Of a stretch of DNA of 64,000 nt, positions 28,560 through 53,653 are shown one piece after another. The first letter of the stretch is position 1. Every line of letters starts with the position of its first letter. The stretch spans positions 1-64,000 of the forward strand of contig CALUYH010000002.1 in the NCBI GenBank assembly GCA_944324965.1, read 5' to 3'. Made by a program: the position numbers and the translations under genes. Origin of the DNA: Candidatus Avelusimicrobium gallinaceum (GTDB lineage Bacteria > Elusimicrobiota > Elusimicrobia > Elusimicrobiales > Elusimicrobiaceae). Under the pieces are notes generated by a model. It ran no database searches. It was not told the origin of the DNA and saw only the letters and a program-made list of their open reading frames with translations.

Positions 28560-28669
28560 GTAAATAAGCGGTTTAAACAAAAATACCCGTCCGTGCGCAG
28601 GCTGCCCTTTGGGAGCAGAGCCCCCGCGGGGCAGGCGCCTAAACAGGCGAAAATAAATCCCTACGTGGG

Positions 28670-29161
28670 CTAAAGCAAGGTGGTCAGCCAGGATGCACAG
28701 AAATAATGGATGCGGGCCGAGGTATTGGCAGAACAAACCGTTTCCAAGGTTCCTTTTGGGGTAGAAGAGGTAATCCAATTGCCGCAGTAATAATTATCGT
28801 GGGCCGCCGTGTTTAAAGAACACGAAGACACAAAGGAACCGTCCTTTTGTTGAACGGTAATCCAATGATTACAAATAGCAGTGACGTGATCCGTGGTATT
28901 TAGAGAGCATGTGGTAATATAGGAGCCGTCCTTTTGGCGGGTGGTAAACCACTTGTCACATTGTCCCTTTTGTTGAGGCTTGGCAAAATCCGTACATTGG
29001 GTTTGTAAAGAACCGTCGCTTAATTTTGTCGTCCGCCACGTGAGGCAGCTTGCCTGGCTCCTCGCCGCTGTATCAGCCGAACAAAAGGTGGTGTAGCGCT
29101 CTGCTGCAACAGAGGGGAGTGTAAATAAAAGCAAAAAACTTAAAAAAATAGTTTTTTTCAT
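28670..29161 (-). CDS. Secreted protein with four 29-residue Cys/Trp repeats
   Basis: A 163-residue protein with a signal peptide of about 20 residues. The mature part is a tandem array with an exact 29-residue period. Cysteines in CxxW lie at 39, 68, 97, 126 and 155, and second cysteines lie at 27, 56, 85, 114 and 143. The consensus is C-x2-W-x-T, a DG[ST] turn and a C 17 residues after the first. The even number of cysteines (10) suggests one disulfide per repeat. I do not recognise the family. The upstream neighbour has the same C-x2-W-x13-C module, so the two are related. The start ATG 29161 precedes the signal peptide. Confidence 0.8.
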   Translation of the reverse strand: MKKTIFLSFLLLFTLPSVAAERYTTFCSADTAARSQASCLTWRTTKLSDGSLQTQCTDFAKPQQKGQCDKWFTTRQKDGSYITTCSLNTTDHVTAICNHWITVQQKDGSFVSSCSLNTAAHDNYYCGNWITSSTPKGTLETVCSANTSARIHYFCASWLTTLL

Positions 29162-29204
29162 ATGCGGCTCCGGTTTAGCGGCGGAATGGAACGGGCGAAC
29201 GCAT

Positions 29205-29972
29205 TTATTTGGCGCTTTCTTTCGGCGCGGGCAATGGGGCTTCGGTGGCATACCGGGTACAAGTTACCTTGTAGGAGCCCCGTTTTTTGTCCATTTTTTC
29301 TCCCGTATATTCCTGGCAGGGATACTGCTTATCCAAGGCCACCCGATCCGCAACAGACGCTACCGGCTTTAAATCACTGTCCGGCCCGATGTAGTCCGTC
29401 CATTGAGAGATGGGCAACCCTGCGTCCGGTTCCAGCTGATAATGGCTGCAACGGCTGATAATGGTGCCATCCGGGCGGTATTCGTGTTTCCACAACAGGC
29501 AGAATTTTCCGTTTTTTTCTTCCTCCCAGTTGGAACATTCGCTCGTCCAGGCGCGTTTTTGTTTTTTTACCAAGGTTTCAGAAAGCGGTTCGGATATAAA
29601 TTCGCGGCAGACAATCCGATGGTCGTCTGGCTCATTGGGATACATCCATTCGGCGCAAGCGGATTGGCGGCTGCCGTTTTTTAGCACAGCCGTTTTCCAA
29701 ATTTTGCAGGTGTACGGGCTGCCCTGTTCGTTGGCGGAGGAAAGAGGTTGGCTTGTTTCTGCCGCGGAGGATTGCTTTTTAGAAGCGCTTGGAGCCGGGT
29801 TTGCGGCTGGCGGCAAAGCGGTGGGGTCCTTAAACTCGCGCCAACTCCGGCAGGTGATGGATTTTTCTTCGTTGAAGCGTGTTTGAGTCACCCATTCTTC
29901 ACAGACATGTTCCGCCTGGGCGCACAGCGAACAGCTCAATAAAAATAAAAAAATCAGAATATGTTTTTGCAT
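29205..29972 (-). CDS. Secreted Cys-rich protein with divergent CxxW modules
   Basis: A 255-residue protein with a signal peptide of about 20 residues. It contains ten cysteines of the type C-x2-[WYF] at 24, 41, 89, 106, 122, 146, 158, 175, 219 and 238. Spacings of 17 recur (24-41, 89-106, 158-175), as in the downstream repeat protein. A Pro/Ser/Ala linker separates the first module (about 50-85). GGGGG before ATG 29972 serves as ribosome binding site; an earlier ATG would place this inside the gene. It is 43 nt upstream of its paralogue, probably one operon. Function unknown. Confidence 0.8.
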   Translation of the reverse strand: MQKHILIFLFLLSCSLCAQAEHVCEEWVTQTRFNEEKSITCRSWREFKDPTALPPAANPAPSASKKQSSAAETSQPLSSANEQGSPYTCKIWKTAVLKNGSRQSACAEWMYPNEPDDHRIVCREFISEPLSETLVKKQKRAWTSECSNWEEEKNGKFCLLWKHEYRPDGTIISRCSHYQLEPDAGLPISQWTDYIGPDSDLKPVASVADRVALDKQYPCQEYTGEKMDKKRGSYKVTCTRYATEAPLPAPKESAK

Positions 29973-29988
29973 AAGACCCCCTATGTTC

Positions 29989-29994
29989 ATTATA
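29989..29994 (-). promoter_or_regulatory. -10 element of the Cys/Trp-module operon
   Basis: Minus-strand TATAAT, about 17 nt before the chosen start, with the GGGGG ribosome binding site in between. Confidence 0.5.
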
Positions 29995-30108
29995 ACCCTG
30001 ATTGCGGGCATTTTATTGCAAAATTTCAAGGGCCGGGGGCTTTTCCGCGTGCGTTTAAGGCACGTTTTGTTACCGTATTCGTCGTCTGAAATTGTCTTTT
30101 TGGAAAAC

Positions 30109-30134
30109 AAAAAGGACGCCTTTCGGCGTCCTTT
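30109..30134 (-). terminator. Terminator of tRNA-Asn
   Basis: AAAGGACGCC/GGCGTCCTTT hairpin followed by a T-run on the minus strand, starting directly after the tRNA. Confidence 0.85.
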
Positions 30135-30138
30135 CAAA

Positions 30139-30213
30139 TGGCTCCCCGAGTAGGGCTCGAACCTACAACCTACCGGTTAACAGCCGGTCGCTCCACCATT
30201 GAGCTATCGGGGA
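30139..30213 (-). tRNA. tRNA-Asn (anticodon GTT)
   Basis: The full cloverleaf on the minus strand has acceptor TCCCCGA/TCGGGGA, D-stem GCTC/GAGC, anticodon stem ACCGG/CCGGT with loop CTGTTAA, T-stem GTAGG/CCTAC with TTCGAGC, and discriminator G. The 3' CCA is encoded, unlike in tRNA-Gly(CCC). Confidence 0.97.
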
Positions 30214-35437: not shown

Positions 35438-36016
35438 ATGAATAAAGTTTATCAAAAATCATTATTTATTAAAAAAAACGTTGGATTTACGCTAATAGAA
35501 CTGTTGGTGGTTGTTTTAATTATTGGCATTTTGGCGGCAGTAGCCCTGCCCCAGTATACCAAAGCGGTAGAAAAATCCCGCGCCGCACAGGCATTGGCAG
35601 TTTTGAAGTCGTTTGGACAAGCTAATCTGGCGTATTATATGGCAAATGGCCAATATCCCGTTTCGTTTGAGCAGTTGGATATAGATATGCATAATTGGAC
35701 GGGGCGCGAAGCTTGGTATAGGGGAGCCACAGACACTCGTTCTAATGGGGATTGGTCTTTGCAGATTATTAATGAGGGCGAAAGTAAAAATCAGGGGGTA
35801 TATGTCGGGCGTTTGACGGGGGCATATAAGGGGGGCGGTTTTGCTATCTATACGGTGCGGTTAAATAATGGAAAAACAGATAATATCGTCTGCTTAGAAC
35901 GGACGAGTGAAGGGGTTGTATTTGAAAAAGCGGCCGGGGATTATTGTCAAAAACTCTTCCAAGCGACGTTGGCCCCTTCTCAGGAGGGGTTCGTACGTAC
36001 TTACAATATGCCTTAA
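35438..36016 (+). CDS. Type IV pilin-like protein (pilin paralogue 3)
   Basis: A 192-residue prepilin. Cleavage is expected after Gly16, before F-T-L-I-E with Glu5. The first 90 residues are very close to paralogue 1 (shared NxxYQK start, PQYTKAVEKSRA, YYMANG), so the two are recent duplicates with different C-terminal halves. Two C-terminal cysteines (VCLE and YCQK) could close the D-loop. The gene is monocistronic and has no ribosome binding site. Confidence 0.9.
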   Translation: MNKVYQKSLFIKKNVGFTLIELLVVVLIIGILAAVALPQYTKAVEKSRAAQALAVLKSFGQANLAYYMANGQYPVSFEQLDIDMHNWTGREAWYRGATDTRSNGDWSLQIINEGESKNQGVYVGRLTGAYKGGGFAIYTVRLNNGKTDNIVCLERTSEGVVFEKAAGDYCQKLFQATLAPSQEGFVRTYNMP

Positions 36017-53062: not shown

Positions 53063-53653
53063 TTAGCGGGCGGCGGGGGCGTTTTTATCCTGGCAGGTCA
53101 GCTCGGCGCCCAAAAAGAAAATCTGATTTTTCTTGTACACGCAGGAAAGTTTTTCCGAACGGGGGGTTCCGTCCGCGGCCGGCGCCAGCGGGCGCAGGCA
53201 CGCAATGCGCGTGCAGGAATACGTTTCCCCGCATTGCGGAAAAGAGGAGGAGGGAAAGTTGGAAATAAACCACGAAAAATCCAAATTGTAATTCAGCGCG
53301 TTTAAAAAGTTGTCGCACGTCATTTCGTCCGTAAATGTGCAGCGCGGCTCGGCGGAGGAATTTTCAATCGTTACGGTTTGGTCCAACAGCGTATAGCGTT
53401 CGGCCGCGATGGGGTCGCCCTGCACCATATACACGTCGTAGCAGGAATAGCCGGGTTTTTGGGCTTTGGTGCAGGTAAAACGCTTTAAAATATCGTGCCC
53501 GGGGCAGGTGTCTTCCACCAGGGCGGGGTCCGTCGTCAGGTATTGGGGCGTTTGGCGCACCGTTTGCGGTTTATAGGCGGCATCGGCCGCGTGCAGGGCG
53601 GCAAAGGCCCCGCTTAAAAGTACGGCTCCGGCTAGCAGATAAAAGCGTTTCAT
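53063..53653 (-). CDS. Secreted Cys-rich protein of unknown function
   Basis: A 196-residue protein with a signal peptide of about 22 residues (ending HAADA). The mature part has about eleven cysteines spread over the chain, including TCPGHD, FTCTKA, YSCYDVY and YSCTRIACL. I recognise no family. Cysteine spacing does not follow the 17/29 rule of the CxxW-module pair. It has GGAGGA before ATG 53653 and stands alone upstream of and divergent from the multi-PAS gene. Disulfide-bonded periplasmic or surface protein is the best guess. Confidence 0.7.
   Translation of the reverse strand: MKRFYLLAGAVLLSGAFAALHAADAAYKPQTVRQTPQYLTTDPALVEDTCPGHDILKRFTCTKAQKPGYSCYDVYMVQGDPIAAERYTLLDQTVTIENSSAEPRCTFTDEMTCDNFLNALNYNLDFSWFISNFPSSSFPQCGETYSCTRIACLRPLAPAADGTPRSEKLSCVYKKNQIFFLGAELTCQDKNAPAAR

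Follow-up and report, generated by a model that had tools for sequence, protein, structure and literature searches.

The window, that is, the entire 64,000-nucleotide stretch of DNA analyzed here, contains two adjacent genes on the reverse strand, P2 and, 43 bp downstream of it, P1. The two genes probably form one operon, and both encode proteins with a Sec-type signal peptide at the N-terminus, as identified by inspection of the translations. The first-pass annotation described them as two secreted proteins built from a Cys-x2-Trp-x13-Cys module, and both reading frames, complete with signal peptides, are indeed found where it placed them. The genes and the associated features are as follows.

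28670-28672: stop codon of P1
28673..29161, reverse strand: P1, a 163-aa predicted exported protein consisting of a signal peptide and five 29-residue units (translation, autocorrelation, and unit alignment)
28673..28750, reverse strand: P1 unit 5, TLETVCSANTSARIHYFCASWLTTLL, which stops ahead of the DG turn (unit alignment)
28751..28837, reverse strand: P1 unit 4, SFVSSCSLNTAAHDNYYCGNWITSSTPKG (unit alignment)
28838..28924, reverse strand: P1 unit 3, SYITTCSLNTTDHVTAICNHWITVQQKDG (unit alignment)
28925..29011, reverse strand: P1 unit 2, SLQTQCTDFAKPQQKGQCDKWFTTRQKDG (unit alignment)
29012..29098, reverse strand: P1 unit 1, RYTTFCSADTAARSQASCLTWRTTKLSDG (unit alignment)
29102..29161, reverse strand: P1 signal peptide, MKKTIFLSFLLLFTLPSVAA (from the translation, cleavage site by inspection)
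29205..29972, reverse strand: P2, a 255-aa predicted exported protein with degenerate copies of the P1 module and a variable linker
29250..29318, reverse strand: P2 module 4, C219-x18-C238-x2-Y
29439..29501, reverse strand: P2 module 3, C158-x16-C175-x2-Y
29646..29708, reverse strand: P2 module 2, C89-x16-C106-x2-W
29841..29903, reverse strand: P2 module 1, C24-x16-C41-x2-W
29980..30019, reverse strand: family promoter ahead of P2, GCAATAAA-N13-GGGTTATAAT, followed by the ribosome-binding region
30110..30135, reverse strand: terminator-like hairpin past tRNA-Asn, within a 46-bp sequence that is repeated at the prophage junction of a related genome (G060)
30139..30213, reverse strand: tRNA-Asn(gtt), the 3' end of which is the probable prophage attachment site in two related genomes (G060 and G063)

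The cysteines of mature P1 are located at positions 27/56/85/114/143 and 39/68/97/126/155, exactly as claimed previously, with tryptophans at 42/71/100/129/158, and the unit consensus is S-Y-x-T-x-C-S-x9/10-C-x2-[WY]-x-T-x4-D-G. The BLOSUM self-similarity of P1 peaks at lags 29 (1.88) and 58 (1.40); in 2000 residue shuffles, 0.32 was never exceeded at any lag, so that the 29-residue recurrence lies beyond all of them. P2 consists of four clear modules of the C-x2-[WY]-x13-15-C type, with long linkers between them. The three 17-residue cysteine spacings noted earlier in the larger protein are seen as C-x16-C pairs with an aromatic residue at +3 (24-41, 89-106, and 158-175), to which the longer C219-C238 version adds a fourth copy. 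No periodicity was detected in P2 by its own autocorrelation (the best lag was reached by 337 of the 2000 shuffles), and the repeat assignment in this protein therefore comes from homology to P1 rather than from self-similarity. Indeed, the P1 profile finds P2 both in the genome of the window (E 3e-4) and in a related genome, G059 (E 4e-5), and alignment of the two families with hhalign (95.6% probability, E 1e-8) makes P1 and P2 homologous at the level of sequence. In the P2 homologs from two genomes (G061 and G062), the linker contains an extra Cys-pair module. Across 97% of the genome of the window (1.44 Mb), P1 and P2 are the only reading frames with at least two copies of the module.

The earlier claim that no described family carries this signature is borne out: searches of Pfam, NCBIfam, and PHROGs produced no hit that exceeded the curated cut-off and no significant match that was consistent, and no profile match of P1 or P2 to a solved structure was found in PDB. 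The scattered Pfam matches of individual members (best E 5e-5) mostly involve unrelated families of eukaryotes or viruses, differ from one member to the next, and were read as reflecting composition. Relatives were detected in 14 of the 66 genomes of the genus (13 with the P1 profile, with G062 added by P2), and there were no credible ones in the 275 other genomes of the phylum (341 phylum genomes in total). The sole match outside the genus (G294, E 4e-4) is limited to the N-terminal 54 positions of the profile, of which half belong to the signal peptide, and was read as spurious. When about 85,000 species genomes were scanned, starting from short exact motifs so that distant relatives could escape, the same group only was recovered, labeled uncultured Elusimicrobiales or uncultured bacterium, and no encoded P1 or P2 relative was found in IMG/VR contigs, phage records, and plasmids. 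To judge from their sequences, P1 and P2 are one new family of Sec-exported tandem-repeat proteins that, as far as searched, is confined to one genus. The first-pass annotation had proposed to look for the repeats in homologs and to trace the distribution in Elusimicrobiota; the repeats are retained in the homologs, and relatives do exist in the phylum, but their spread is far narrower, a single genus.

Comparison of 13 P1-like sequences reveals the anatomy of the unit. The C-x16-C spacing is invariant in every unit, whereas the alternate spacing is C-x10-C or C-x11-C, depending on the protein; because only this loop varies, the units are 28 or 29 residues long, and the 29-residue repeat proposed earlier holds for P1 itself but not as a general length. 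Complete P1-like proteins contain five units in 11 cases, four in one (G061), and two in one (G045); the five units of the G063 protein, a twelfth such case, are distributed over two contigs with overlapping ends, so that here the count is a reading rather than a measurement. At any copy number, every array begins at the Y-x-T-x-C strand and ends just ahead of the D-G turn. A ring or a fixed five-unit closure, which we considered, is weakened by the four-unit protein and by the two-unit one, although the latter is encoded in a decayed prophage. The units within the G045, G061, G059, and G063 proteins are 78-96% identical to one another, compared to 33-49% identity to the units in the same positions of other proteins, indicating that units are homogenized within genes. 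Within a unit, the Cys-Cys loop is the most variable part, with an entropy of 2.73 bits vs 1.57 elsewhere. The suggestion that the module forms an extended surface fiber finds no support in these proteins: nearly all intact homologs have five short units, no anchor or convincing lipobox was found in P1 or P2, and hydropathy revealed no transmembrane segment beyond the signal peptide in either protein (maximum 19-residue hydropathy 0.45 in P1 and 0.32 in P2). A role as a binding protein, the other part of that suggestion, is possible.

The AlphaFold2 models of both proteins are all-beta meanders with two strands per unit, at low confidence (mean pLDDT 55 for P1 and 50 for P2), so that they are useful only as a hint at a hairpin meander; the best Foldseek E for these low-confidence models is 0.3, that is, nothing significant. 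Cysteine-rich beta-repeat proteins, such as insect antifreeze proteins, consist of short tandem beta units with two cysteines per unit, as predicted for P1. They can serve as a lead only, given a unit length of 12 as opposed to 28-29 residues in the P1 family and no sequence or structure match to them in our searches.

The cysteine composition suggests that P1 and P2 are likely disulfide-bonded, as the annotation of a disulfide-locked module had it. Each added unit brings two cysteines, and among the exported non-pilin proteins with 2-12 cysteines in the genome of the window, even counts outnumber odd ones 62 to 28 (p 4e-4), compared to 181:165 for the other soluble proteins; for the type IV pilin-like proteins, the ratio of even to odd counts is 52:4. 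All these counts are based on crude gene and signal calls, and the pilins are paralogs, but the trend is unambiguous. The oxidation machinery is elusive. No DsbB or VKOR above the cut-off was found in the 66 genomes of the genus, whereas control genomes matched, and the genome of the window contains one VKOR match, under the cut-off. Its sole DsbA match, a weak one (L103:880-1827), is an exported, thioredoxin-like protein of 315 aa, in which the CPYG motif has a single cysteine and the C-terminus contains GSC. These weak or absent oxidases could argue against disulfides. However, DsbA-like oxidation without a partner is known in other anaerobes (PMC12453122) and, together with the bias toward even cysteine counts, makes disulfides likely. 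Thus, the genus seems to form disulfides without either known oxidase, DsbB or VKOR. As for the connectivity, C-x10/11-C pairing within each unit would use all cysteines of P1 at any copy number and leave over the first and the last cysteines of P2. With C-x16-C pairing within hairpins, the pattern of leftovers would be reversed, and the strand registers of the low-confidence models would place the C-x16-C pair on opposite faces.

In the close clade, the genes occupy a single chromosomal interval, with the order MFS transporter, tRNA-Asn, P2 (where present), P1, trkH, rimO. This MFS-(tRNA-Asn)-P1-trkH-rimO arrangement is the commonest location, and even in G039 and G042, which are more distantly related within the genus, P1 lies in the same neighborhood. 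The presence of P1 and P2 is patchy across the genomes of the genus. In G009, which lacks both, the flanks align, and a 1.5-kb segment (from approximately 28584 to 30105) is absent, with unrelated sequence in its place. The window copies themselves lie outside any prophage: among the neighbors examined, there are no phage genes, and tRNA-Asn alone adjoins. At the same MFS-trkH site, G047 (L084:2504-3322) encodes an exported protein of another kind, which contains two internal repeats, so that the site may generally accept insertions of exported cargo.

P1 is only 30-34% identical to its counterparts in G007, G059, G060, and G061, compared to 91-95% identity for RimO; TrkH is 88-97% identical within the close clade. 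In G059, P2 is 86% identical to that of the window, with a synonymous divergence lower than that of the neighboring genes, and the adjoining P1 is 31% identical. This pattern of identities is best read as a probable case of allele exchange. In the alignable P1 and P2 pairs, dN/dS is 0.23-0.29 vs 0.04-0.11 in the flanking genes; the family evolves faster than its flanks, with purifying selection still acting.

A shared promoter accompanies these genes. By consensus match, nearly every P1 or P2 copy with its own upstream region, at dispersed loci, is preceded by GCAATAAA and GGGTTATAAT, 12-15 bp apart, and then by AGGAG; the first and the last of these elements also occur as near variants. The composite promoter matched 32 of 154 loci, all of them P1 or P2 loci and none of them pilin or empty-site loci, and it occurs once in 1.44 Mb (97%) of the genome of the window. 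The P1 genes of the window, G049, and G059 lack the promoter directly upstream and presumably are read from P2.

The link to phages comes from the relatives. In G064, a P1 homolog on the plus strand lies in a prophage, where it separates the tape-measure gene (PHROG E 2e-46) from the tail gene that follows. This prophage encodes terminase, portal, protease, major head, major tail, and tape-measure proteins, all with PHROG matches and on one strand, and, further along, repressor-like and integrase-like genes; the P1 homolog is opposite in strand to the tail module. In G045, a decayed prophage still encodes the C-terminal part of the tape-measure protein (86% identity to G064), followed by a P1 homolog and by the counterpart of the subsequent tail gene (77%). 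A second decayed prophage, in G062, has a P2 homolog at this position, flanked by a tape-measure C-terminus (82%) and by that same tail gene (70%). The family gene is reversed in all three slots. That one slot can hold either a P1 or a P2 homolog, each in reverse orientation, is the strongest individual argument for the phage link. IMG/VR, phage, and plasmid searches with the next tail gene gave no matches.

Several other copies lie near tRNA genes or prophages. P2 of G061 begins about 130 bp past a tRNA-Thr. The prophages found beside P1 at the tRNA-Asn site of G060 and G063 have integrases with 76% identity to the G064 one. Between integrase and P1 in G060 lie 46 bp that perfectly repeat the 3' region of tRNA-Asn (L072:13378-13423), a probable attachment site for a phage of this genus that integrates at tRNA-Asn. 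With an att-like sequence between the integrase and P1 in both genomes, P1 falls outside these prophages. Another copy, in G051 and G063, is located between cation-efflux-like and yebC-like genes (named by inspection), with no phage genes.

Taken together, the predicted signal peptides and repeats, the P1-P2 homology, the shared promoter, and the relatives inside or beside prophages argue that the family is, with high probability, phage-linked cargo. The term moron denotes a gene that brings its own promoter along, and these genes would be morons of the temperate phages of the genus: in the G064 prophage and in the G045 and G062 relics, the family gene is an extra gene within a phage module, placed in reverse orientation after the tape-measure gene and ahead of the next tail gene, and the family carries its own promoter, by consensus match. 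The cargo also persists on chromosomes beside tRNA genes. We propose that P1 and P2 are expressed in the lysogen, exported, and fold into a rigid array of stapled hairpins displaying fast-changing loops, and that they alter the cell envelope to the benefit of the phage. Given the tape-measure neighborhood, the fast evolution, and the precedents discussed below, superinfection exclusion might tentatively be considered the single most likely role, whereby the proteins would bind the incoming tail or tape-measure protein or else hide the receptor; the adjacency to the tape-measure gene is suggestive only as a pointer to the target. Taken in a broad sense, as envelope-modifying phage cargo directed against other phages, the whole chain has somewhat short of an even chance of being correct. 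In its strict form, it would be an undescribed class of exported exclusion proteins, disulfide-stapled beta-hairpins encoded beside the tape-measure gene and aimed at its product, with the variable Cys-Cys loops setting phage specificity, in bacteria forming disulfides in the absence of DsbB and VKOR, and in this form it is unlikely to hold in every part. In either form, a new repeat without known relatives is tied to prophages of a poorly studied gut phylum.

There are precedents that partly resemble P1 and P2. HK97 gp15 is a superinfection exclusion moron that blocks DNA entry, with the specificity determined by the tail tube or tape measure (PMC10883804, PMC4737114). Like the P1 and P2 relatives that adjoin the tape-measure gene, it is an extra gene of a temperate siphophage, but gp15 is a predicted inner-membrane protein, whereas P1 and P2 are Sec-exported, cysteine-rich repeat proteins with a putative role in exclusion. 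Ltp of the Streptococcus phage TP-J34 is a prophage lipoprotein that, like gp15, acts on DNA entry, and its block is overcome by changes in the tape-measure protein (PMC10883804). It shares with the prophage-borne relatives of P1 and P2 the status of a prophage-encoded exported protein, but is a lipoprotein of a Gram-positive host, whereas P1 and P2 lack a convincing lipobox and contain a cysteine-rich beta module; both gp15 and Ltp are membrane-associated, unlike P1 and P2, which have no membrane segment past the signal peptide. CwpV of Clostridioides difficile is, like P1 and P2, exported and built of tandem repeats, which come in several sequence types; its anti-phage effect drops when repeats are removed, and action on the tail has been proposed (PMC4737114). 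Unlike the family described here, however, it is host-encoded, phase-variable, and anchored in the cell wall, with repeats of 79-120 residues compared to the unanchored 28-29-residue units of P1, and the CwpV-type anchoring domain (PF04122) was not found in P1 or P2 by Pfam search.

The main rival to exclusion also starts from phage-borne or transported cargo, which would, in this case, help the lysogen in the gut as an exported glycan-, mucin-, or metal-binding protein involved in colonization. Fast-changing loops and allele exchange fit a host-facing ligand as well, copies persist at chromosomal sites without phage genes, and the W or Y in every unit along with the Thr/Ser-rich strands may be reminiscent, in composition, of carbohydrate-binding repeats. 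There are, however, zero matches to carbohydrate-binding families, polysaccharide-use genes are absent beside P1 and P2, and the tape-measure adjacency is better explained by phage conflict, so we consider ligand binding somewhat unlikely.

Alternatively, the family could be an ordinary chromosomal accessory of the envelope, the prophage copies of which are secondary captures near an integration hotspot. The chromosomal location of the commonest site, its conservation in the distant G039 and G042, and the position of P1 outside the prophage in G060 and G063 are all in line with such an origin. Nevertheless, chance capture hardly accounts for three prophage-slot cases that involve two family members in one slot and orientation, nor for P2 behind a second tRNA (tRNA-Thr) and the portable promoter, and we regard this scenario as quite unlikely. 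A secreted toxin, bacteriocin, or other anti-competitor agent with disulfide-stabilized repeats would likewise be small, exported, cysteine-rich, and fast-evolving, but with no evident immunity gene or dedicated export cassette adjoining P1 and P2 and no toxin family matches, this possibility appears highly improbable. Phage-linked cargo with a tentative role in superinfection exclusion is the reading that we prefer.

The genome of the window encodes other exported and cysteine-rich proteins. An exported protein with 10 mature cysteines and without the P1/P2 module is encoded at 53063-53653 of the window. The 1.5-Mb genome contains 59 type IV pilin-like N-terminal methylation motifs, several of them in the window (e.g., at 35438-36016), and two pilin-like proteins, L144 (G000:C1:31950-33500) and L146 (C3:135500-137120), contain 35-36 cysteines and internal repeats, such as CGTQTRTVDCDTSTGEWVTGAW, that are reminiscent of thrombospondin type 1; a Pfam scan of one of these two matched weak pilin models only. 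Elsewhere in this genome (L233:3974-5029, G000:C10), a tandem array of three genes, apparently paralogs, encodes exported cysteine-rich proteins that resemble lipoproteins and have a mature length of about 91-99 residues.
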